From Desulfobacteraceae bacterium (GTDB lineage: Bacteria > Desulfobacterota > Desulfobacteria > Desulfobacterales > Desulfosalsimonadaceae): a DNA stretch of 64,000 nucleotides. Positions within the stretch are counted from its first letter, which is position 1; every line of letters starts with the position of its first letter. Below, in pieces: positions 35,882 to 57,070 of this stretch. A program made the translations under genes and the position numbers. The stretch spans positions 1 through 64,000 of the forward strand of contig JABZFM010000013.1 in NCBI GenBank assembly GCA_014237465.1, read 5' to 3'. The notes under the pieces were generated by a model that was not told the DNA's origin, made no database searches, and saw only the letters and a list, made by a program, of their open reading frames with translations.

Positions 35882-36586
35882 ATGAAAACATTTAAATTCA
35901 ACAATAAAACCTATGAAACCGATGATCAAAATTTTTTAATCGATCATGCAACCTGGGATGAAAATTTCGCTATCGGCATGGCTGCTGAACTCGGCATTTT
36001 CGGCGGTCTGACCGAACGGCATTGGAAAATAATTCATTTTATACAGGATACATTCGAAAAAACCGGGACCCGACCCTTAATATATAAAACATGTAAGACG
36101 ATGAAACTGCAATCCAAAACCCTGCGGCAGCTTTTCCCCACCGGATATCTTAGAGGCGCCTGCCTGCTTGCCGGTATCGGATATAAAGGCCCATGGGATA
36201 AAGCCCATGGATTTAAATTCCCCGAGCCCTATAGAGAAAGGCCTCCCCAAAAATCCGGATGCATAATGAAAGATAAAGTTTACAAAATCGACATATTCGG
36301 CTTTCTGGTTGATCCGGAGGACTGGGACGAGGAGTATGCCGTTATCAGGGCCTATGAAATGAAAATAAAAAACGGCTTAACGCCAAAACACTGGGAGGTT
36401 ATTTATTTCCTGCGTGACAGTTATAAACTGAACAGGCGTGTCCCGACAATTTATGATTGCTGTGAATTAAGTAAAATGGACGTCGAAGATATCGAGGAAC
36501 TTTTTCCTGACGGATACCATCGGTGCGCCGTAAAAATCGCTGGTTTGCCGTCCATCGGCGTGAATATAAAAAGAACAATTCTGTAA
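35882..36586 (+). CDS. Tandem DsrC/TusE-fold protein, copy 1
   Basis: The 234-residue protein has two DsrC-like domains (about 1-105 and 128-230). Each shows FLID/FLVD + W, DENFA or DEEYA, LTERHWKIIHFI / LTPKHWEVIYFL and the LFPTGYLRGACLLAG / LFPDGYHRCAVKIAGLPS end. Domain 1 keeps a Cys (C94) where DsrC has its inner CysB; neither domain has the terminal CysA. Domain 2 has a CC pair (C193, C194) and C215. DsrC proteins are sulfur carriers or redox partners. A double domain is unusual. It follows echF by 49 bases and precedes a paralogue by 46 bases. Confidence 0.82.
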   Translation: MKTFKFNNKTYETDDQNFLIDHATWDENFAIGMAAELGIFGGLTERHWKIIHFIQDTFEKTGTRPLIYKTCKTMKLQSKTLRQLFPTGYLRGACLLAGIGYKGPWDKAHGFKFPEPYRERPPQKSGCIMKDKVYKIDIFGFLVDPEDWDEEYAVIRAYEMKIKNGLTPKHWEVIYFLRDSYKLNRRVPTIYDCCELSKMDVEDIEELFPDGYHRCAVKIAGLPSIGVNIKRTIL

Positions 36587-36632: not shown

Positions 36633-37322
36633 ATGAAAACATTTTCATTCAACCATAAAACCTATGAAACCGATGATCAAAATTTTTTAATCGATCATGC
36701 AACCTGGGATGAAAATTTCGCTATTGGCATGGCGCACGAACTCGGCATGAACGACGGCCTGACCGAACGGCATTGGGAAGTGATTCATTTCATCAGAAAC
36801 AGATTTGCGGAAATCGGCGCTTGCCCGGTCGTTCATGAAACTACACAGGCGCTTGATCTGAACGCGAAATCATTGCAGCAGCTTTTTCCCACCGGATATC
36901 TCCGGGGGGCCTGCCTGCTTGCCGGCATCACATATAAATACGGCTGGGTCTATTATTCTGAAGAGCCTTACCCTGTCAGCCCGCTAATAAAACAAGATAA
37001 AGAGCCTCGGATTCAATTAAAGGATAAGGTTTACCGTGTAGATATTTTTGGATCTCTTGTTGACATTGATGGATGGGACGAGGATTTCGCGATTCGCAGG
37101 GCATATGAAATGGATATTAAAAGCGGATTAACAGATAAACACTGGGAGGTAATTTACTTTTTAAGAAAAAGCTTTATACGGGACAAAAAAATACCCACGG
37201 TTTACCAATGTTGTGAAGCAAACCAGATAGACATCGAAGACCTCGCTTCACTGTTTCCGGGTGGCTATCATCGCGGCGCTGTGAAAATTGCCGGATTACC
37301 GACTTTTGGAAAGGAATCATGA
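36633..37322 (+). CDS. Tandem DsrC/TusE-fold protein, copy 2
   Basis: The 229-residue paralogue of the previous gene has the same two-domain layout, with C94 in domain 1 (LRGACLLAG) and a CC pair at 193-194 in domain 2 (YQCCE). The domain 2 end reads HRGAVKIAGLPTFG, lacking any carrier Cys. Its first domain is identical to copy 1 over 70 bases (35904-35973 against 36655-36724), showing recent duplication or gene conversion. It precedes the formate dehydrogenase after a hairpin element. Confidence 0.82.
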   Translation: MKTFSFNHKTYETDDQNFLIDHATWDENFAIGMAHELGMNDGLTERHWEVIHFIRNRFAEIGACPVVHETTQALDLNAKSLQQLFPTGYLRGACLLAGITYKYGWVYYSEEPYPVSPLIKQDKEPRIQLKDKVYRVDIFGSLVDIDGWDEDFAIRRAYEMDIKSGLTDKHWEVIYFLRKSFIRDKKIPTVYQCCEANQIDIEDLASLFPGGYHRGAVKIAGLPTFGKES

Positions 37323-37535: not shown

Positions 37536-40500
37536 ATGAAAACAATTACCAGAAGAGAGTTCATTCAAATTTCAGGGGGAACCCTCGCGGGATTCGCCTT
37601 GAGCGGGTGTTTGGGCGTTAACATGCGCCCCATTCAGGAAAGTGTGAATGGCCTTCGTATTCTTCATGCCAGGCAGACCACAACGATTTGTCCGTATTGC
37701 GCGGTTGGTTGCGGTATTATCGTGCATACCGTTAAAGGCAAGGTGATCAATACCGAAGGAGATCCGGACCACCCGATCAATGAAGGCAGCCTCTGCAGCA
37801 AGGGCATGGCAGTTTATCAAATCTCTCACAACAATCCCAACCGGCTCACCCAACCATTATACCGACCGCCTTACGGCACGGAATGGGAAGAGGTGTCATG
37901 GGATTTTGCTTTGGATAAAATCGCCCGACGCATCAAGGAAACCCGTGACAAGACATTTGAAACAACAAATGACAAAAACCGCATCGTCAATCGAACACTG
38001 GGGATGGCCTCACTCGGCAGCGCCGCGCTGGATAACGAAGAATGTTATATTTACCAGAAACTGCTAAGGGGATTAGGACTCGTATATGTTGAACATCAGG
38101 CCCGTATCTGACATTCGGCTACTGTAGCGGCTCTGGGAGAGTCGTTCGGACGCGGCGCAATGACGAACCATTGGATCGATCTTGCAAACAGTGATTGTAT
38201 TTTAGCCATGGGGAGCAATCCGGTTAAAAATCATCCGATTTCCTTTAAATGGATGACCAAAGCCATAGACAGGGGGGCGACACTCATCAGCGTTGACCCC
38301 CGTTTTACCCGTACATCAGGCAAAGCCCATATTTATGCCCCGCTTCGGTCAGGTACCGACATCGCATTTCTGGGCGGCATGATAAAGTATATTATCGACA
38401 ACAACCTCTTTTTTGAAGAATATGTGAAAGAATACACCAATGCCTCATTTCTGGTAAACCCGGATTTCAAACTTCCTGCAGATAACGAGGGTGTTTTTTC
38501 AGGATTAACGGGAATTAAAACCAACGAAGGGATTTTAGACGGCAAATACGATAAATCCACATGGGCCTTTCAAAAGGGTGATAATGGTACACCTAAAAAA
38601 GATCCGACACTGGCAGATCCCAACTGTGTGTTCCAACTCCTGAAAAAACACTTCTCCAGATATACGCCGGACTTGGTCTCACAAATTACCGGAACCCCTG
38701 AAGATAATCTATTGCAGGTTTATAAAGCCTACGGCAAAACCGGCAAGGCAAACAAAGCCGGCACCATCATGTATGCCATGGGATGGACCCAGCACACGGT
38801 GGGAACGCAGAACATCAGAACCATGGCGATTATCCAGCTGCTTCTGGGTAATATGGGAATGGCCGGGGGCGGCGTGAACGCGCTCCGGGGAGAATCCAAT
38901 GTACAGGGCTCTACCGATCATGCCCTCCTGTTCCATATACTCCCGGGCTACCTCAAGACCCCAAAAGCTTCCCAACAAAACTACCAAGACTATATCGCTG
39001 CCGTCACACCCAGGTCCGGTGATGCCATAAGCGCCAACTGGTGGCAGAATTATCCCAAATACTCAGCCAGCCTGCTGAAAGAATTTTACGGCAAGGATGT
39101 GTCGTTGGATGATGCCTATCATTATTTCCCAAAAATTGATGATACTGAAAATTATTCATGGCTGACCATATTTGATCAACTCTACCACAATAAATTTTCC
39201 GGTCTTCTGTCCTGGGGACAAAACCCGGCATGCAGTGGCGCAAACGCCAATAAAACCAGAAAAGCCTTAACAAATCTGGACTGGCTGGTGAATGTGAACC
39301 TGTTTGACAATGAAACCGGCTCCTTCTGGAAAGGTCCGGGAATGGACCCCGAAAAAATTAAAACTGAGGTATTCATGCTGCCCTGCGCCGCATCGTTTGA
39401 AAAAGAAGGCAGTATTACAAACAGCGGCCGATGGATGCAATGGAGATATAAAGCAACGGAACCATCCGGTCAATCCCGACCGGATGGGGATATCATCTGC
39501 GATCTCTTTAATCGTTTAAGACACTTGTATCAAACAAATGAAGGGGCCTTTGCTGCACCGATCCTAAAACTGAAATGGCATTATGGGCCAAAAGACCGTA
39601 AAGGCAATATCAAGCACATGGACCCGCATATGGTGGCCAGGGAAATTAACGGATATTTCCTGGAAGATAAAATCATCAAAGGAAAGCTTTATAATAAAGG
39701 GACCCTGGTGCCCAGTTTCGCTTACCTCCAGGATGACGGCTCCACATCCAGCGGGAACTGGCTGTATTGCAATTCATATACCAAAGAAGGCAATATGGCG
39801 GCCCGAAAAATCAAGGCTGATCCATCCGGAATTGGTCTTTATTCCGGATGGGCCTGGTGCTGGCCGGTAAACCGCCGCATCCTGTATAACCGCGCATCCG
39901 TGGATAAAATCGGCAAACCCTGGGCGCCTGAAAAACCGGTCATTGAATGGCATCGCAACGTATGGCGGGGAGATGTTCCGGACGGCGGGTGGCCGCCCCT
40001 TTCAAAAGGAACAAAATCCAGATACCCGTTTATCATGCTGCCTGAGGGACATGCGCATATTTTCGGGTCGGGCTGCACGGACGGACCATTTCCTGAGCAC
40101 TATGAACCGCTCGAAAGCCCGTTAAAAAGCCACCCTCTGTCTCCCCAGTTTGTTAATCCGGCTGTTAAGCGCTGGGATAGAGATGGCCAGGAAGGCCAAA
40201 TGAATGCAAGGGCAACCAATGATCCCAGATTTCCCATTGTGTGCACGACGTATCGACTGGGAGAACACTGGCAGACCGGGATTATGACACGCTGGCAGCC
40301 ATGGCTGGCCGAACTGGAACCGGGAATGTTTGTTGAAATCAGCGATGTTCTGGCAAAGGAATTAGGGATTAAAAAAGGCGAGATGGTCATTGTCGAATCA
40401 GCAAGAGGGGCATTGGAAGCGGTCGCCATTGTCACCATTCGCTGGCAGCCGTTTAACGTTATGGGGAAAACCATTCACCAGGTGGGGATTCCCTGGCATT

Positions 40501-40664
40501 ATGGCTGGGCAACTACGGCGGAAAGGAGCTATCACGCCACAGACAAAAAACCGGAAGTTTTTACGTTCGGGGATAGTGCAAACCTGGTGACGCCGAACAT
40601 CGGCGATGCCAATACCATGATACCGGAAAGCAAATGCTTTATGGTTAATGTCCGTAAAAAATAA
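37536..40664 (+). CDS. fdhA: Selenocysteine formate dehydrogenase catalytic subunit, Tat-exported
   Basis: One 1042-residue gene that conventional calling splits at an in-frame TGA (38109-38111), residue 192. The context is EHQARI-U-HSATVAALG...GRGAMTNHWIDL, the universal Sec site of formate dehydrogenases. The leader TRREFIQISGG directs Tat export; ALSGC near residue 25 looks like a lipobox. The 4Fe-4S motif CPYCAVGC...SLCSKG follows, then the molybdopterin domains, ending in the dinucleotide-binding region (VCTTYRLGEHWQTG). It oxidises formate to CO2 in the periplasm with W or Mo. fdhB follows after 14 bases. No FdhC cytochrome b is present, so electrons probably go to a soluble cytochrome c. 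Confidence 0.95.
38109..38143 (+). promoter_or_regulatory. Selenocysteine UGA and candidate SECIS hairpin
   Basis: UGA at 38109-38111, with a 6-bp stem GGCUCU-GGG-AGAGUC (38129-38143) centred about 25 bases downstream, the distance used by bacterial SECIS elements read by SelB. The downstream frame stays open and conserved, so read-through is required. No sel genes lie in this window. Confidence 0.75.
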
Positions 40665-50561: not shown

Positions 50562-51098
50562 ATGGGGCGAAGCAGATATAAAACCTTTGAAAACGGGAAA
50601 ACATATTTTATCACAAGCAGTGCAATAAACTGGCTTCCCGTGTTTGCAATACCTCAATTGGCAGAAATTGTAACGGATTCACTGAATTTTCTTCATCACA
50701 ACCAGCGGATGAGAATCCATGCCTGGGTGCTCATGGAGACCCACTTGCATCTTGTCGCCACCTCATCCGATATGTCCGGTGAAATGAAAAAAGCAAAATC
50801 ATATACTGCACGATCAATTGTTGATTACCTGAAAGCCAACGGCCCGCAATTTTTACTGGATCAGATGGAATTTTATAAAAAAAAGCACAAACAGAATCAA
50901 ACCTACCAAGTCTGGCAGGAAGGATTTTATCCCAAGTTAATTACGGATGCAACGATGCTGATTCAAAAGATTGAATATATTCATTATAATCCGGTAAAAC
51001 GGGGATATATTGACAAACCGGAGCACTGGCGGTATTCCAGTGCCCGCGACTACACAGGACTGGACGGTATAGTCACTATTGAGCGTCTGAAGGTATGA
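50562..51098 (+). CDS. REP-associated tyrosine transposase (RAYT, Y1_Tnp)
   Basis: The 178-residue HUH protein has the HxH motif at H61-L-H63 (METHLHLV), a candidate catalytic Y81 (KSYTARSI), and the family hallmark YIHYNPVKRGYIDKPEHWRYSSA. It nicks single-stranded REP hairpins. The gene lies between BIME modules 2 and 3, whose palindromes are its probable substrates. The usual HVHxx proline-rich context (MPNHVH) is here METHLH, a known variation. Likely domesticated, with no IS ends. Confidence 0.88.
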   Translation: MGRSRYKTFENGKTYFITSSAINWLPVFAIPQLAEIVTDSLNFLHHNQRMRIHAWVLMETHLHLVATSSDMSGEMKKAKSYTARSIVDYLKANGPQFLLDQMEFYKKKHKQNQTYQVWQEGFYPKLITDATMLIQKIEYIHYNPVKRGYIDKPEHWRYSSARDYTGLDGIVTIERLKV

Positions 51099-51125
51099 TT
51101 GGGATTTTCTCGTTTTCTCATTCCT

Positions 51126-51392
51126 CGTTCCCAGGCTCCGCCTGGGAACGCATACCGCAAGGCTCCGCCTGGGAACGCATACCGCAAGGCTCCGCCTGGG
51201 AACGCATACCGCAAGGCTCCGCCTGGGAACGCATACCGCAAGGCTCCGCCTGGGAACGCATACCGCAAGGCTCCGCCTTGAAGGGTACCGATATATAAAA
51301 AAGAGGCAGAGCCTCCTAACAGGTGTTCCCAGGCAGAGCCTGGGAACACCTGTTAAGGAGACGAGAAAATGGCAGAGCCATGGAACGAGAGG
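51126..51392. repeat. BIME-like repeat module, copy 3 (right of RAYT), with 27-bp tandem array
   Basis: The CGTTCCCAGGCTCCGCCTGGGAACG palindrome is followed by five tandem 27-base units at 51134-51268 (GGCTCCGCC-TGGGAACGC-ATACCGCAA), each a complete palindrome half. Then come GAAGGGTACCGATATATAAAA, GAGGCAGAGCC, and a second CAGGTGTTCCC...GGGAACACCTG palindrome. Reading frames through it, on both strands, are repeat artefacts. Confidence 0.8.
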
Positions 51393-51419: not shown

Positions 51420-52067
51420 TTATATAACCCGAAGTCCCGAAATCTTTACCGCTCCCCGCTGATAACCGTCCGGAAAAAGCGCAGCCAGGTCGTCCATTTC
51501 AATGTTATTCTCTTCACAGCATTGAAAAACGGTTGGAACGCTTTTTGCCGCCCGATACCGATCTCTGAGATAATTAATTATTTTCCAGTGTTTTTCCGTC
51601 AACCCACCCGGCATTTTCATTTCCAGGGCCTTGTTAATAGCATATTGTTTATCCCATTCCAAAGGATTAACAAGAAAACCATTCTGATCAATCTGATAGA
51701 TTTTTTCTTCCTTACCTGACATATCCGGAACCGATTCCCCCAAACAGCTGACAATCCGATTCTTGTATGTTATTCCGGCAAGCAGACAGGCCCCTCTCAA
51801 ATACCCACTTGGGAAAAGATAACTTAATTCTGTCGATGTTAATTCATTGCTCTTGCAGGTTTGAAAAACAAACGGACACCTTCCGGTTTGCTGAAATGAT
51901 TCTCTGATAAAAAGTATAACCGCCCAATGCGCTGCTGAAAGTCCATTAGTGATTCCGAGTTTGGGCGCCATGCCGATGGCAAAATCTTCGTCCCACTCAT
52001 CCGGGTTAATCAAAAACCCCCATGCACCCAGATTATAGACTTTATCTTTAAACGAAAAGGTTTGCAT
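51420..52067 (-). CDS. Tandem DsrC/TusE-fold protein, copy 3
   Basis: The 215-residue protein is a third member of the double-DsrC group (others at 35882 and 36633). Domain 1 (1-105) retains C94 (LRGACLLAG) and FQTCK (C71). Domain 2 (118-215) has FQCCE (C183, C184) and LFPDGYQRGAVKISG with no carrier Cys. The last residues (GLRVI) end at the point where DsrC has its terminal CysA arm. It is the last gene of the kinase/receiver/FNT operon, beginning 3 bases after the FNT gene stop. This physical link supports a joint role. Confidence 0.82.
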   Translation of the reverse strand: MQTFSFKDKVYNLGAWGFLINPDEWDEDFAIGMAPKLGITNGLSAAHWAVILFIRESFQQTGRCPFVFQTCKSNELTSTELSYLFPSGYLRGACLLAGITYKNRIVSCLGESVPDMSGKEEKIYQIDQNGFLVNPLEWDKQYAINKALEMKMPGGLTEKHWKIINYLRDRYRAAKSVPTVFQCCEENNIEMDDLAALFPDGYQRGAVKISGLRVI

Positions 52068-52070
52068 GGG

Positions 52071-53351
52071 TTACGCCTTTCTTTGTTTATCTGATTTTGA
52101 CGGCTTCAGGTACGCCCCCCAATAGCTCATACCCACAAATGCACCGCCGCCGATGATATTGCCGATGGTTACCGGCAGAAGGTTTTTCCACAAAAAATTA
52201 ATCCAATTTAAAGAATCAGATGCCGCACCCTGTATTGCAGAGAGTTCCGCCCAATTTTGAATAAATATCCCTGCTGGAATAAAATACATGTTGGCCACGC
52301 AATGCTCAAATCCAATGGCAACAAAGCCCATGATGGGGAAAAAAATCGCAAATATTTTACCGATCGTCTGGCGGGCAGCCAGGGCCATCCAGACCGCCAG
52401 GCAAACCAGCCAGTTGCAGCCGATTCCCCGAAAAAGCGCCTCATTAAATCCCAGAGAGACTTTTTTCGCGGCAATATTGACCGCCGCAGCTCCCAGCGCC
52501 CCATCTCCAGTCTTCCATAAACCGGAAAAATAAAAAATTAAAACAAGAATAATCGAACCGATAAAATTAGCCACATAAACCAGGCCCCATCTTTTTAACA
52601 TATCGGTAAATGTTATTTCTCTGGACAGCACGCTGGAGACCATGAGATTGTTACCTGTAAATAATTCCGCTCCGGCAATCACAACCAGTATAAGGCCGAG
52701 GCTGAATGCCGATCCCGCCATAATTTTAGTAAAACCGATACCTGCAATTGCTGCCATGTCGAATGTTACGGTTGTTGAAAGCAGACCACCAAAACCGATA
52801 TAACAACCGGCAAGTACGCCCAAAACAGTTACCGTAAGCCAGGGCGAAGTCACCTTGCCGACACCGACGGTGGATGCAACGGTTTCCGCAATTGTTTTGG
52901 GCGTTTTATCTTCCATGCCCGGAACGGGAAACTGCAGAGAACCGATTATTTTCTCAAATCGCCCCAGGGCTTGCTTTTCTTCCACGATTTTGCGTTGAAT
53001 CGCTTTTTTAACTGTGCCCATAATCTCTTCCGGCGTAAACGGCTTGGCCACATAATCCATTGCGCCCCGTTTCATGGCTTCCGTTGCACGCCCGACGGAC
53101 GGGTACCCGCTGATCATCACCACAGCGGAATCCGGTGATCGGCGGTTAATCTCTTCAACCACATCCAGGCCGTCAAAACCGGGCATTTTCCAGTCACAAA
53201 GTATGACGTCATAGGCTGAATCCGAAGCCAGCCTGAGACCCTCCGCGGGACTTGATGTAATCACCACATTAAATCCTTCAGAAGAAAATATCTTCCGGCA
53301 TGAGTTTAATACGATTTCTTCGTCATCGATGATCAGCATGCTCTGGCTCAT
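52071..53351 (-). CDS. Response regulator receiver domain fused to a formate/nitrite-family (FNT) channel
   Basis: The protein has 426 residues. Receiver (1-125): LIIDDEEIVL, phosphoacceptor D53 (ILCDWKMPGFDG), MISGYPS and VAKPFT. A linker (125-165) leads to six membrane helices of the FNT fold (about 170-420): AGAELFTGNNLMV, central GFEHCVANMYFIPAG with the conserved pore His (H350), and GNIIGGGAFVGMSYWGAYL. FNT members carry formate, nitrite or hydrosulfide. ATG 53351 was chosen with GGGAG 8 bases before it. A channel gated or stabilised by phosphorylation is inferred. Substrate (formate likely, HS- possible) is open. Confidence 0.92.
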   Translation of the reverse strand: MSQSMLIIDDEEIVLNSCRKIFSSEGFNVVITSSPAEGLRLASDSAYDVILCDWKMPGFDGLDVVEEINRRSPDSAVVMISGYPSVGRATEAMKRGAMDYVAKPFTPEEIMGTVKKAIQRKIVEEKQALGRFEKIIGSLQFPVPGMEDKTPKTIAETVASTVGVGKVTSPWLTVTVLGVLAGCYIGFGGLLSTTVTFDMAAIAGIGFTKIMAGSAFSLGLILVVIAGAELFTGNNLMVSSVLSREITFTDMLKRWGLVYVANFIGSIILVLIFYFSGLWKTGDGALGAAAVNIAAKKVSLGFNEALFRGIGCNWLVCLAVWMALAARQTIGKIFAIFFPIMGFVAIGFEHCVANMYFIPAGIFIQNWAELSAIQGAASDSLNWINFLWKNLLPVTIGNIIGGGAFVGMSYWGAYLKPSKSDKQRKA

Positions 53352-53414
53352 TTTATTATCTCCCAACCCGGATAAACCGGAAAGTTACGAAAACGATTCT
53401 TAAAAGACTATGAT

Positions 53415-54029
53415 TTAACGTTTTTTGCCCTCAATCAACCATTGCTTGTGATCCGGCTGGATAATTCCGATCTGGTCCTCAATCCAGTCAATATCTGCGG
53501 TTATGAATGCGAGTTTTTCCTGGCTTGTCAGATCATAGTTTTCAAGTGCGTCCGCACCATCTGCAAACAGACGTTTTGCGAAATCCCGATCCGCGGCACC
53601 CTTTTTTAGAATTTTTAAAACTTCTTTTCTGTGAATAATTGTTTGATCCTCACATGATTCACCCGATGAATCTTCCATTGCGGATACGACTATCCGGATC
53701 AGTTCTTCAGGGGAAAACGGCTTCTCAATATAATTCGTAGCACCCAGTTTCATCGCCTGGACCGCGGAACTCACTGTTGCGTATCCTGTTATCATTACAA
53801 TGGGGACCGATGCCTTGGATTTTCTGATATCTCGAATTACCTGGAATCCATCAATGTCCGGCATGCGAATATCTGTCAAAATAACGTCATACGGCTCGTT
53901 GACGGCATAACGGATTCCTTCCGCACCGTTAAGCGTCGTTGCCACTTCAAAATCTTCTTCAGTCAGTATTTTAAAAATACTATCCAGGACGATCTGTTCA
54001 TCATCAATCACTAAAGCTCTTTTTTTCAT
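53415..54029 (-). CDS. Response regulator with receiver and small helical C-terminal domain
   Basis: The protein has 204 residues. Receiver (1-120): LVIDDEQIVL, VILTDIRMPDIDG, MITGYA and IEKPFS. A C-terminal domain (about 140-204) has LKKGAADRDFAKRLFADGADALENYDLTSQEKLAFITADIDWIEDQIG, an AA-D-x-F...AL..YDLT..E motif seen in LigA-like small domains and Nif11-type leaders, not a DNA-binding fold. A paralogue with the same layout precedes it. It lies upstream of the receiver-FNT gene. Start set by GAGGAG 7 bases upstream. Confidence 0.88.
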   Translation of the reverse strand: MKKRALVIDDEQIVLDSIFKILTEEDFEVATTLNGAEGIRYAVNEPYDVILTDIRMPDIDGFQVIRDIRKSKASVPIVMITGYATVSSAVQAMKLGATNYIEKPFSPEELIRIVVSAMEDSSGESCEDQTIIHRKEVLKILKKGAADRDFAKRLFADGADALENYDLTSQEKLAFITADIDWIEDQIGIIQPDHKQWLIEGKKR

Positions 54030-54102
54030 GACATGTCTCCTCATTTACGTCCCTCATCAATAAATCCCCGGGCATTCAAGGATGCAAATATACACAAATG
54101 GA

Positions 54103-54729
54103 TTACCAGATTTCCGCCCCCAAACGGGCTTCAAGCCATTTTTTTTGATTTTGAGAAAGCGGCCCGATCTGTTCTTCAATCCATCGGATATCGCCTGTTA
54201 TGATGGCAAGTTTTTCAGGGCCGGTTAAGTCATAGTCATCCAACGCATCCGCGCCGTTGTTGAGCAAATTATGCCGGAAAGAATCATCCGTTGCCGCCAT
54301 TTCAAGGACCCTGATCATTTCTTCCTTGTGAATGATTGCCTGTGCCTCCGGCTCCTGAATTTTCCCCAATTTAATGGCCGATGATATTGATGCAATAAGC
54401 ACATCCGGATCAAACGGCTTTTCAATGTAGTCGGCAGCGCCCAGTTTCATCGCCTGGACCGCGGACTGAATGCTGCCGTATCCCGTGATAATAATTACGG
54501 GCATGGCCGGCTTTGCCCGCTTAATGTCTCGAAGAACAATCAACCCCCCGATTTCCGGCATGCGAATATCGGTCAATACGATATCATAGGCATTCTTTAC
54601 AGCCATTTTAATACCCTTCTTGCTGCTCAATGTTACGTCGACATCATAACTTTCAGCATCAAGAATCTTTTTCACACTGTCCAATACAATCTGTTCATCA
54701 TCAATTACCAGTGCTTTTACCTGTTCCAT
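54103..54729 (-). CDS. Response regulator with receiver and small helical C-terminal domain, paralogue
   Basis: The protein has 208 residues. Receiver (1-120): LVIDDEQIVL, IVLTDIRMPEIGG, IITGYGS and IEKPFD. Its C-terminal domain (about 138-208) has LEMAATDDSFRHNLLNNGADALDDYDLTGPEKLAIITGDIRWIEEQIG, clearly paralogous to the neighbour. The conserved tail recurs in both and could bind a common partner, such as the FNT receptor or DsrC. GGAG is 6 bases before ATG 54729; the previous gene stops 3 bases upstream. Confidence 0.88.
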   Translation of the reverse strand: MEQVKALVIDDEQIVLDSVKKILDAESYDVDVTLSSKKGIKMAVKNAYDIVLTDIRMPEIGGLIVLRDIKRAKPAMPVIIITGYGSIQSAVQAMKLGAADYIEKPFDPDVLIASISSAIKLGKIQEPEAQAIIHKEEMIRVLEMAATDDSFRHNLLNNGADALDDYDLTGPEKLAIITGDIRWIEEQIGPLSQNQKKWLEARLGAEIW

Positions 54730-54732
54730 CAA

Positions 54733-55101
54733 TTATCTCCTTTCAAGAACCTGGCGAACTGTTTCAAGCAACTCATCCGGTGTGAATGGTTTTGGTAAAA
54801 ATCGACATGCCCCCATTATATCCGCTTCTTCTATTGTTTCTTTTGTACTGTAGCCGCTCATCACAATAGCCGGCGTGTCGATCTCACGTTTTTTTAATTC
54901 CTTCATTAAATATATACCATCGTGGATCGGCATTTTCAAATCTATTAAAAGAAGCGCAGGCCCTTTGTTCTCAATTGCCGCAAGCGCTTCATCAGCTGAT
55001 TTTACCAGTAACACCTCAAAACCTTCCGGTTCGAGCACCCGCCTGCAGCTCTCAAGAACAATTCCTTCATCATCCACGACTAAAATCTGCATTTTGCTCA
55101 C
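54733..55101 (-). CDS. Response regulator, single receiver domain
   Basis: The 122-residue CheY-like receiver has LVVDDEGIVL, phosphoacceptor in LLIDLKMPIHDG, VMSGYS and LPKPFT. Its start overlaps the end of the kinase gene by 32 bases, so it is tightly coupled and the likely first phosphate acceptor of it. Confidence 0.92.
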   Translation of the reverse strand: MSKMQILVVDDEGIVLESCRRVLEPEGFEVLLVKSADEALAAIENKGPALLLIDLKMPIHDGIYLMKELKKREIDTPAIVMSGYSTKETIEEADIMGACRFLPKPFTPDELLETVRQVLERR

Positions 55102-57070
55102 CCTGTTTATCTATTGGTTGATCTTTTGGTTTATCTATTGGTAACCACACAAAAAACTTCGTCCCTTTGCCTTCTTCGCTTTGGACCCTGATGTTCCCCC
55201 CATGTTCTTTAACGATTCCAAAGGAAACAGATAAACCAAGGCCGGTCCCTTTGCCGACCTCTTTGGTTGAAAAAAACGGCTCAAAAAGTTTATCAAGATT
55301 GTCGGAGGCTATGCCGCAACCTGAATCAGAGATGATAATCTCAACCCCTCTGTGCCCTGTATCGTTTGCAGATAAAGCAGCGATTGTAGTAATTTCAATC
55401 AAACCGGAGGGCTCTGTCGCATCAAGGGCATTTATCATGATATTTAACAGAACACTTTGAATCTGGCTTCGATCAAGAACAAACATGGGTAAATTTTCTC
55501 CCCGATTAAACTGAACACTTACACCTTTCACCAATGCCTGGTTTTCAATTAATTTAATGGTGGCATCCACCAGCCGGTTTATATCTGCTGTTTCCGGGTC
55601 TAATTTTGTCTGCCGGGAGAAATCGAGCAATCCTTTTACAATTTTTCTAACCCGATCCGTGGATTCAGCAACCACCTGAAGATCAGATCGAATATCATCG
55701 GTTATGTCTTTTCTTCTCAGCAGCATATGGGTATATGTGAGTACACCGGTAAGGGGGTTGTTGATCTCATGGGCAACCCCTGCCGCAAGCCGCCCCACAC
55801 TTGCCTGCTTTTCCGATTGAAGGATCTGGCTTTGGCTTGCCATGCGTCTGCGCTTCATGGATTCAACCATATCTTTAAACGTTTTTTGTAAGAGAGCGAT
55901 TTCCGGGTCTTTAGAAACAGGACCAATTTCAGGGTTCAAATACCCATCAGAAACCGCCTGGCTTGCCTTAACCAGGTGATGCACGGGAACCAGAATTCGA
56001 TAAACTAAAAGAAATCCCATGCCAATAGCGATCATTGTACCGATAAAGGTGGCCATGATGAAAAAGAGAATAAAATTGCGTTGAATGGTTGAATAATTGG
56101 ATTCTAAAATTGCAATGGAGGACATCCCGACCCTTTTTCCGAATATATCTTCAATCGGCTTATATGTTGCAATATAGCGGTCAGTCAGGCAAAACTCCCG
56201 TGTCGTCCATTGATTTCCCCGGACCAGAACCTGTTCTTTTACTTCACCTGAAACCTGTGTGCCAATCGCCCGATTACCATTCTCATCCAGCATGTTGGTT
56301 GCGACACGGAAGGTATCAAAAAATATGCTTGCCGTCGGCAGACTGGTTTCTTTTTGAATGCCGACAGGAAATACTGATTTCTGGACCAGATCAACGATAC
56401 CGGTACTCTGATTAAGGAGAATACCGCCATAAAGAATACCTATTAACTCACCATTTGTCCGTTGCGCAAATATCGGAATCGCAGCGGCAATTGCCAGACA
56501 TGCCTTTTTTTCATCGTCAGCTGTCGTGTCTTGAGCGATCGTGTCTTGATTGTTGTGCTCCATCGGATAGAATTGAATTCGACCGGAGAGCTCCGGATTT
56601 TCATGCGCCATAAATGTTTTGGAGAGAACAACCGTTCCGGCAGTCTTTAGTCGATGATTTATGGCATGCTGGGCAATGGGATTTTCAGGTTGAACATTAT
56701 CTCCCGGAATTGAATTTTCTCCGATCCGGCATAGCGTGCTTCCGCTGTTTGTGACAATTCCGGCAAAATCCAACTCTGAATGCACAGACATTCGTTCTAA
56801 CCGATCGATCAGATCTGGAATATCACGTTGAATCAGTGAAAAACGGAATCCTTCTCCCAAAATGGTAATTTCAAGCGCAACCTTCACATATTTAATTTGT
56901 GCATTGTAAATATTATCTGCGGCGTTTAAGGACAATCTGACCTGCTTGGCCGATTCCTGAACCATCGGGTGAAATAACAAGTAACCGCCAATAAATAAAA
57001 ATATCCCGCCCGCGAAAAACGGAACAATCAAAAAACCGGCAATCAGTCTGAATCGTTTTGAGTGAAACAT
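55070..57070 (-). CDS. Membrane sensor histidine kinase with Cache-like ectodomain and HAMP
   Basis: The protein has 666 residues. TM1 (about 9-33), an about 300-residue extracytoplasmic Cache-like region (DFAGIVTNSGSTLCRIG, KTFMAHENPELSGRIQF, GILYGGILLN), TM2 (333-357), HAMP (358-410), HisKA with H434 (AAGVAHEINNPL) and HATPase ([31 protein letters not shown]). It senses a periplasmic ligand and probably feeds the downstream receivers. It heads the operon ending in the FNT channel and the double DsrC protein. Confidence 0.93.
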   Translation of the reverse strand: MFHSKRFRLIAGFLIVPFFAGGIFLFIGGYLLFHPMVQESAKQVRLSLNAADNIYNAQIKYVKVALEITILGEGFRFSLIQRDIPDLIDRLERMSVHSELDFAGIVTNSGSTLCRIGENSIPGDNVQPENPIAQHAINHRLKTAGTVVLSKTFMAHENPELSGRIQFYPMEHNNQDTIAQDTTADDEKKACLAIAAAIPIFAQRTNGELIGILYGGILLNQSTGIVDLVQKSVFPVGIQKETSLPTASIFFDTFRVATNMLDENGNRAIGTQVSGEVKEQVLVRGNQWTTREFCLTDRYIATYKPIEDIFGKRVGMSSIAILESNYSTIQRNFILFFIMATFIGTMIAIGMGFLLVYRILVPVHHLVKASQAVSDGYLNPEIGPVSKDPEIALLQKTFKDMVESMKRRRMASQSQILQSEKQASVGRLAAGVAHEINNPLTGVLTYTHMLLRRKDITDDIRSDLQVVAESTDRVRKIVKGLLDFSRQTKLDPETADINRLVDATIKLIENQALVKGVSVQFNRGENLPMFVLDRSQIQSVLLNIMINALDATEPSGLIEITTIAALSANDTGHRGVEIIISDSGCGIASDNLDKLFEPFFSTKEVGKGTGLGLSVSFGIVKEHGGNIRVQSEEGKGTKFFVWLPIDKPKDQPIDKQGEQNADFSRG

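Follow-up and report, generated by a model that had tools for sequence, protein, structure and literature searches.

A receiver domain fused to a FocA-like FNT channel in Desulfobacterota, a candidate response regulator with a channel as its output

The 64,000-nucleotide stretch of Desulfobacteraceae DNA analysed here (the window) carries on its minus strand, at 52071..53351, a single ORF for a 426-residue protein that joins a receiver domain (Pfam PF00072) to a channel domain of the FNT family (PF01226). We regard this fusion as no chance join because the catalytic residues of the receiver are invariant among the fusions recovered, their channel domains form one clade, the gene is under purifying selection and it is linked to a sensor kinase gene. 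From sequence comparisons, we propose with a probability of about 0.63 that phosphorylation of D53 directly controls the activity of the channel, most likely for formate. A previous sequence-only reading of the window had suggested that a phosphorelay gates the channel; the receiver residues, the full channel, the conservation of the family, the kinase linkage and the position of the receiver all speak for this, and the gating step itself is what we infer from them.

The fusion ORF reads without interruption from an ATG at 53351 down to 52071, and is preceded by GGGAG at 53360..53364 (minus strand), which resembles a ribosome-binding site and may act as one. The coordinates agree with those of the sequence-only reading; the gene runs on the minus strand, since stops interrupt the frame on the other one. 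The receiver (aa 1-120, 52992..53351, minus strand) matches Response_reg at aa 6-114 (E 3.1e-27; 95.4 bits for a cut-off of 30.2) and indeed contains D53 (codon 53195-53193). The channel domain (aa 159-418, 52098..52877, minus strand) matches Form_Nir_trans at aa 160-411 (E 3.5e-81; 272.6 bits for a cut-off of 34.6) over profile positions 7-239 of 240, in agreement with the claim of a full channel, and the histidine of GFEHCVANM that had been proposed as the pore histidine is H350, aligned with H209 of FocA. Neither HisKA nor HATPase_c was found on the fusion protein with Pfam. When the protein was searched against its own genome, 75 matches were obtained; the single FNT match was the fusion gene, and the other 74 were confined to the receiver part or extended barely beyond it.

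Our searches yielded 36 ORFs with both parts, which were reduced to 32 distinct proteins, window included, by removing three duplicates and one split copy. Receivers operate with an acid pocket, a phosphoacceptor aspartate, a switch hydroxyl (Ser/Thr) and a lysine. This set of the receiver superfamily, whose pocket comprises two acidic residues, was complete in all 32 intact fusions, in which D9, D10, D53, S81 and K103 were invariant; we take D9 and D10 to form the acid pocket, D53 to be the phosphoacceptor, S81 the switch hydroxyl and K103 the lysine. Between the two domains, a coupling segment (aa 121-158, 52878..52991, minus strand) continues beyond the last receiver helix and, in the alignment to FocA, passes into the part that corresponds to the N-terminal helix of that channel; this part includes the motif IAETVA (aa 154-159), also invariant among the 32 fusions. 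For the receiver, aa 121-158 and the FNT domain, the mean frequency of the commonest residue was 0.75, 0.72 and 0.79, respectively.

As the sequence-only reading had stated, a kinase gene and three receiver genes precede the fusion, all on the minus strand and assigned with Pfam. The sensor histidine kinase, our proposed phosphodonor (55070..57070), comprises sCache_3_3, HAMP, HisKA and HATPase_c domains; its sensor domain had one match among solved structures, at E 0.04, too weak to point to a ligand. RRa (54733..55101) is a single-domain receiver of 122 aa whose gene starts before the kinase gene ends. RRb (54103..54732) consists of a receiver and a C-terminal domain of ~80 aa (RRbC), and RRc (53415..54044) is a paralogue of RRb with the same architecture. 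A gene for a two-repeat DsrC-like protein (51420..52067, minus strand; PF04358 in two stretches) starts 3 bases past the fusion stop and is probably cotranscribed with the fusion; no match to this protein was found at the other fusion loci compared. Further downstream of the row, an ORF at 51050-51349 (minus strand) contains five repeats of the 9-aa unit GGALRYAFP and is presumably a non-coding tandem repeat.

The linkage to the kinase recurs across the family. A kinase of the window family lies upstream on the same strand within 4.5 kb at 29 of 32 loci (the window itself, and 28 of the 31 other loci, one of the 28 being truncated at a contig end). It is missing at L018 and L121, where 676 bases and ~1.3 kb, respectively, separate the fusion from the contig end, and at L019, where neither such a kinase nor a separate receiver was found in the 6.4 kb upstream. 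A separate upstream receiver is present at 29/32 loci, the exceptions being L019, L121 and L139. RRbC-type regulators occur at 14 of the 32 loci, window included, and the remaining 18 have none in the upstream row. By our reading of the loci, the upstream row is minimal at 14/32 of them (L022, L023, L111, L113, L114, L120, L122, L123, L125, L126, L127, L138, L140 and L143), where the fusion is accompanied just by the kinase and by a single separate receiver, 115-166 aa long. As a control, we considered 69 loci of unfused FNT genes, 49 of them with 3 kb on either side; in five, the surrounding 3 kb held some match to RRa, RRbC or the kinase of the window, at no more than 31% identity. Receiver-like or sigma-54-regulator-like ORFs adjoin some rows (L113:7780-8490, L115:2758-4161, L126:156-1115), and DNA-binding outputs may exist at fusion loci.

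The channel domain was compared with E. coli FocA and NirC. It passed the NCBIfam subfamily model TIGR00790 fnt (244.3 bits for a cut-off of 232.3), and missed both the FocA equivalog TIGR04060 (235.4 for 290.1) and the NirC model PRK11562 (108.2 for 293); among PDB sequences, the channel part matched formate transporters best, E. coli FocA being one of them. We therefore describe it as a FocA-like FNT, without filing it as FocA. The residues at the positions aligned with F75, F90, T91, K156, F202, F207 and H209 of FocA are all identical in the fusion, where T91, K156 and H209 correspond to T232, K297 and H350; T232 and H350 are the central pore threonine and histidine expected of the FNT family, and K156 presumably has a role in the FocA pore. 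K26 and T28 of FocA are also kept, as K166 and T168, whereas Y25 and K29 are not.

These positions have known functions in FocA. In the available part of PMC12559229, T91, H209 and the phenylalanine gate are functional pore positions, and Y25, K26, T28 and K29 are crucial and fall within regions crosslinked to the enzyme PflB. According to the accessible sections of PMC11841067, PflB is bound in E. coli by the N-terminal helix of FocA, which is cytoplasmic, and this contact presumably gates the channel; transport is severely impaired once the helix is removed, and FNT-family pores are not simple open-or-closed channels. FNT proteins have a cytoplasmic N-terminus and form pentamers (PMC5572259, PMC9380403, available portions). 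The alignment to E. coli FocA places the end of the receiver and its extension directly ahead of the segment matching the N-terminal helix of FocA, and the receiver would therefore occupy the site at which a separate enzyme acts on FocA.

The sequence-only reading had left formate, nitrite and hydrosulfide as candidate substrates. We favour formate, because the channel scores closer to the FocA than to the NirC models, formate-dehydrogenase-like genes are present in the window, within a molybdopterin/FdhE/hydrogenase island, and RRbC domains are encoded near formate dehydrogenase genes elsewhere (see below); we found nothing in favour of nitrite or hydrosulfide. The same regulated channel could nevertheless carry acetate, hydrosulfide or nitrite, a reading compatible with control through D53 that we consider unlikely while still giving it some weight. 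Members of the FNT family do differ in substrate (PMC5525234, in its available text), the FocA equivalog cut-off was missed, and an ORF cluster resembling acetyl-CoA synthetase by eye lies near three fusion loci. Against it stand the 235 bits obtained with the FocA model versus 108 with that of NirC, a comparison between these two models, as well as the formate-dehydrogenase-like genes of the window and those near RRbC in three other genomes.

Several features of the window deserve a mention in this metabolic context. The formate-dehydrogenase-like molybdopterin protein at 37536-40664 (plus strand) has an in-frame TGA at 38109-38111 that probably encodes selenocysteine. Two paralogous cytidylate-kinase-like proteins (PF13189; 41501-42286 and 43277-44056, plus strand) flank the FdhE-like gene of the formate dehydrogenase/hydrogenase island, and a HypF-like protein (TIGR00143; 59641-62148, plus strand) contains an internal short repeat of the ATSVA type. 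The DsrC-like protein that follows the fusion belongs to a set of three two-repeat proteins, with those at 35882-36586 and 36633-37322 (both plus strand), none of which has a cysteine in its last 15 residues; the first two match PF04358 and the third (36633-37322) was judged by eye. Metabolic neighbours vary among the fusion loci, and a common metabolic neighbourhood was rejected: beyond the kinase/receiver row, clustering of the neighbours recovered just four small clusters of 3 loci each, among 29 of 34 loci (L025 and L128 included; L020, L114, L116, L121 and L143 left out), many of which reach contig ends.

The RRbC domain may offer a second connection with formate. Its profile matches were weak and limited to PF14407 and nitrile hydratase, with no recognised DNA-binding domain among them, giving no support to RRbC as a known DNA-binding domain. 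In the order, an RRbC match at E 0.01 was present in 43 of 291 genomes, four of them marginally, and we inspected nine RRbC regions, one of which (L215) belongs to genome G306. In this genome, a different FNT (L174:511-1824, minus strand) bears an RRbC-like domain at its C-terminus (aa 376-441 of a frame of 444 aa; E 7.5e-8 in a search of 11,854 ORFs); a second RRbC copy (E 3.3e-14) is encoded by the ORF immediately upstream (L174 1886-2215, minus strand). In 3 of the 8 regions inspected outside G306 (L208, L209 and L210), a protein combining a receiver with RRbC is encoded within ~3-5 kb of a gene for formate dehydrogenase alpha, a count that covers RRbC regulators only. Fdh-alpha was the best NCBIfam model in all three, over the cut-off in L210 (704.8 versus 666.25), the other two being fragments; the neighbours in L207, L211 and L214 look similar. 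We take the RRbC-FNT fusion of G306 and the presence of RRbC near formate dehydrogenase genes as added support for control of a formate channel, and RRbC may mark further formate-linked signalling. We also observed that the three regulators (L208:5128-5826, minus; L209:4724-5413, plus; L210:5282-6013, minus) are accompanied by a kinase and a receiver protein of ~475 aa, and are followed by a Pyr_redox_2/Fer4 protein (tested in L208, by look in L209) or a NuoF-like protein (L210), then by the formate dehydrogenase genes.

This distribution of RRbC bears on another explanation, according to which the receiver serves for docking or as a scaffold: upon phosphorylation, it would recruit the kinase, RRb/RRc or formate dehydrogenase to the channel without any gating of its own, in the manner of PflB on FocA. 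FocA does operate with a docked partner enzyme (PMC12559229, PMC11841067, as far as their available parts go), and RRbC domains occur joined to an FNT as well as in the vicinity of formate dehydrogenase genes. However, the coupling segment is only slightly less conserved than the receiver and leads straight into the counterpart of the N-terminal helix, and 18 of the 32 loci lack an RRbC protein in the upstream row. We find docking without gating rather improbable.

A third possibility reverses the direction of control: the channel would report formate flux or occupancy to its receiver, altering the drain of phosphate from the kinase and thereby tuning RRa, RRb and RRc. One kinase is indeed common to several receivers, and transport-signalling fusions are known as sensors, for instance the Amt-kinase of Kuenenia (PMC5764959, in the part available). 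In addition, the row is also found without the channel: two genomes (G160 and G185; L212 and L213) have a kinase-RRa-RRb row and yielded no FNT match, the row of L213 being followed by a carboxypeptidase-like gene, and the signalling row is therefore not everywhere dedicated to a channel. On the other hand, at 14 of the 32 loci the upstream row offers no output besides the fusion other than a single separate receiver, and the Kuenenia sensor bears a kinase, not a receiver. We hold such a transceptor to be very unlikely.

Returning to the control of the channel through D53, we examined the spread and descent of the fusion. It is rare. In the family, full-length copies were present in 6 of 36 genomes, own included; the order has 17 of 291, namely 16 with a full-length fusion (own included) and a 17th, G089, whose truncated copy matches aa 198-420 only; in the phylum, it was found in 10 of 395 genomes, 7 of them outside the order. 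A scan of GTDB contigs, from which the best 80 loci were kept, included nine intact fusions and one draft copy, of D. cetonica (L025), split over two frames. Presence outside the phylum has as its sole basis the labels of L018 (Latescibacterota) and L019 (Acidobacteria), two MAGs that may be misbinned. In G089 (L128:8106-9361), the FNT of the fused clade is cut to aa ~203-426 and comes directly after RRa, whose gene is read in another frame; there is an N gap of 100 bases ~0.6 kb upstream, away from the junction, and this short copy may be a deletion or an assembly error. The fusion occurs on the complete chromosome of Desulfosediminicola flagellatus (L022) and in the one-contig assemblies G104, G045 and G322.

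Phylogenetic analysis was performed on 108 FNT domains, comprising the 32 fused ones, that of G089, FocA and NirC of E. coli, and unfused relatives from the best 80 contig matches. All 32 fused domains were recovered on one branch of 33 rows, the 33rd being G089, with a support of 100/100. The simplest reading is that the fusion arose once. In nine hand-picked pairs, several with dS >1 so that the values are rough, dN/dS ranged from 0.017 to 0.121 in the receiver and from 0.006 to 0.147 in aa 121-158 (6 pairs of 9 with unsaturated dS in both cases), and from 0.041 to 0.156 in the channel (7 of 9). Receiver, linker and channel are thus all under purifying selection in the tested pairs. The fusion also seems to stand alone in its hosts: at E 1e-10, exactly one FNT match was obtained in each of 25 other fusion genomes and G089 (26/26), and a search of the 26 intact-fusion genomes checked, own included, revealed no FNT besides the fusion in any of them, in assemblies 61-100% complete. 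Across the order, 57 of 291 genomes had an FNT match at E 1e-20.

That the receiver is a passenger or relic attached to a constitutive channel, or the fusion a sequencing artefact, is hardly credible: the truncated G089 copy, devoid of a receiver, and the split copy of D. cetonica could be invoked, but the catalytic residues are invariant in 32/32 and dN/dS is low, and the presence of the fusion in complete and one-contig genomes contradicts the artefact. A frameshift or assembly error joining two genes, which the sequence-only reading had named as a possible refutation, can be dismissed as the source of the architecture, because the fusion recurs at 64-86% identity in other genomes; an artefact or a chance join is ruled out by this recurrence and by the invariant catalytic residues.

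Other candidates for fusions were rejected among the FNT loci. An independent receiver-FNT fusion in Lachnospiraceae (L073; 32% identity over aa 5-416) proved to be an FNT ORF without a receiver, and the N-terminal extensions of L038, L043, L049, L058, L066, L067, L068, L070, L087 and L088 looked by eye like overhang of the stop-to-stop reading. We also observed tandem pairs of FNT genes in records of Brocadia and other planctomycetes (L071, L080, L089 and L094), the two copies falling in separate clades.

The preferred reading, control of the channel by phosphorylation of D53, can be spelled out as follows, phosphotransfer, flux control, the pentamer, the formate substrate and the roles of RRa, RRb and RRc being what we infer. 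The fusion would be a response regulator with a FocA-type channel as its output domain. The membrane kinase of the same gene row would use its Cache domain to detect a small molecule outside the cell, and would phosphorylate D53 of the receiver. The altered receiver would then act, via the following helix and the conserved IAETVA helix, on the N-terminal element of each FNT protomer, whose shift would set the pore of that protomer for formate or formic acid; five receivers would ring the cytoplasmic mouth of one pentamer. RRa is probably a phosphate sink or relay. At loci that have them, RRb and RRc probably use RRbC to act either on this channel or on enzymes of formate metabolism. Whether phosphorylation opens or closes the channel is a guess, leaning only slightly towards opening.

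More tentatively, and with odds we place a little below even, this two-component branch would need no gene regulation: aspartyl phosphorylation would gate an anion channel, with five receivers per pentamer, within a wider network of formate control, with RRbC as the link from receivers to both FNT channels and formate dehydrogenases. If so, a sensor kinase would control the channel itself rather than the channel gene, and bacteria could steer the flow of ions and acids by the logic of the phosphorelay, without a transcription step. For FocA-type channels, a built-in phospho-switch ahead of the N-terminal helix would provide a means of trapping both states. Where anaerobes trade formate with partners, switching the sole FNT channel could control interspecies electron transfer.

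What appears to be new is a response regulator with a new class of output, a channel, an architecture that domain databases may already list. The main text of the FNT family survey (PMC5525234) never uses the words fusion, fused, receiver or response regulator, and the text of an archaeal census (PMC5847659) does not contain the word transporter. The sequence-only reading knew of no described example, and this is consistent with our searches of the open-access literature: among the papers listed, judged by titles and abstract starts, none described a receiver-FNT protein.

The outputs of response regulators are usually DNA-binding, enzymatic or protein-binding. The fusion shares with these regulators a full catalytic receiver, an upstream kinase gene and a C-terminal output domain, and differs from them in that the output is an integral-membrane channel. 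Compared with FocA of E. coli, to which it is 40% identical, it has the whole FNT domain, the pore Thr, Lys, His and Phe positions, the counterpart of the N-terminal helix and the C-terminal Y-L-K/R, whereas FocA has no receiver and its N-terminus is partnered by PflB. Two FNT proteins from our searches, each a single case, are also joined to signalling domains. In a Nitrospirae MAG, an FNT (L082:7962-9224, plus strand) is fused to an intracellular signal-receiving domain, PilZ (PF07238, E 2.6e-9, over the cut-off), which suggests a possible control of that channel by c-di-GMP; unlike the receiver of the fusion, this PilZ domain is C-terminal and of the c-di-GMP type, and its FNT belongs to another branch. 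The FNT-RRbC protein of G306 is likewise linked to a domain of the same signalling row, but it has no receiver and a different FNT sequence. Finally, in Ks-Amt5 (PMC5764959, in its available part), a transport fold is also covalently joined to a two-component part; there, the transporter domain sits on a kinase as a sensor, whereas in the fusion the receiver stands ahead of the channel, which would therefore imply the opposite direction of control.
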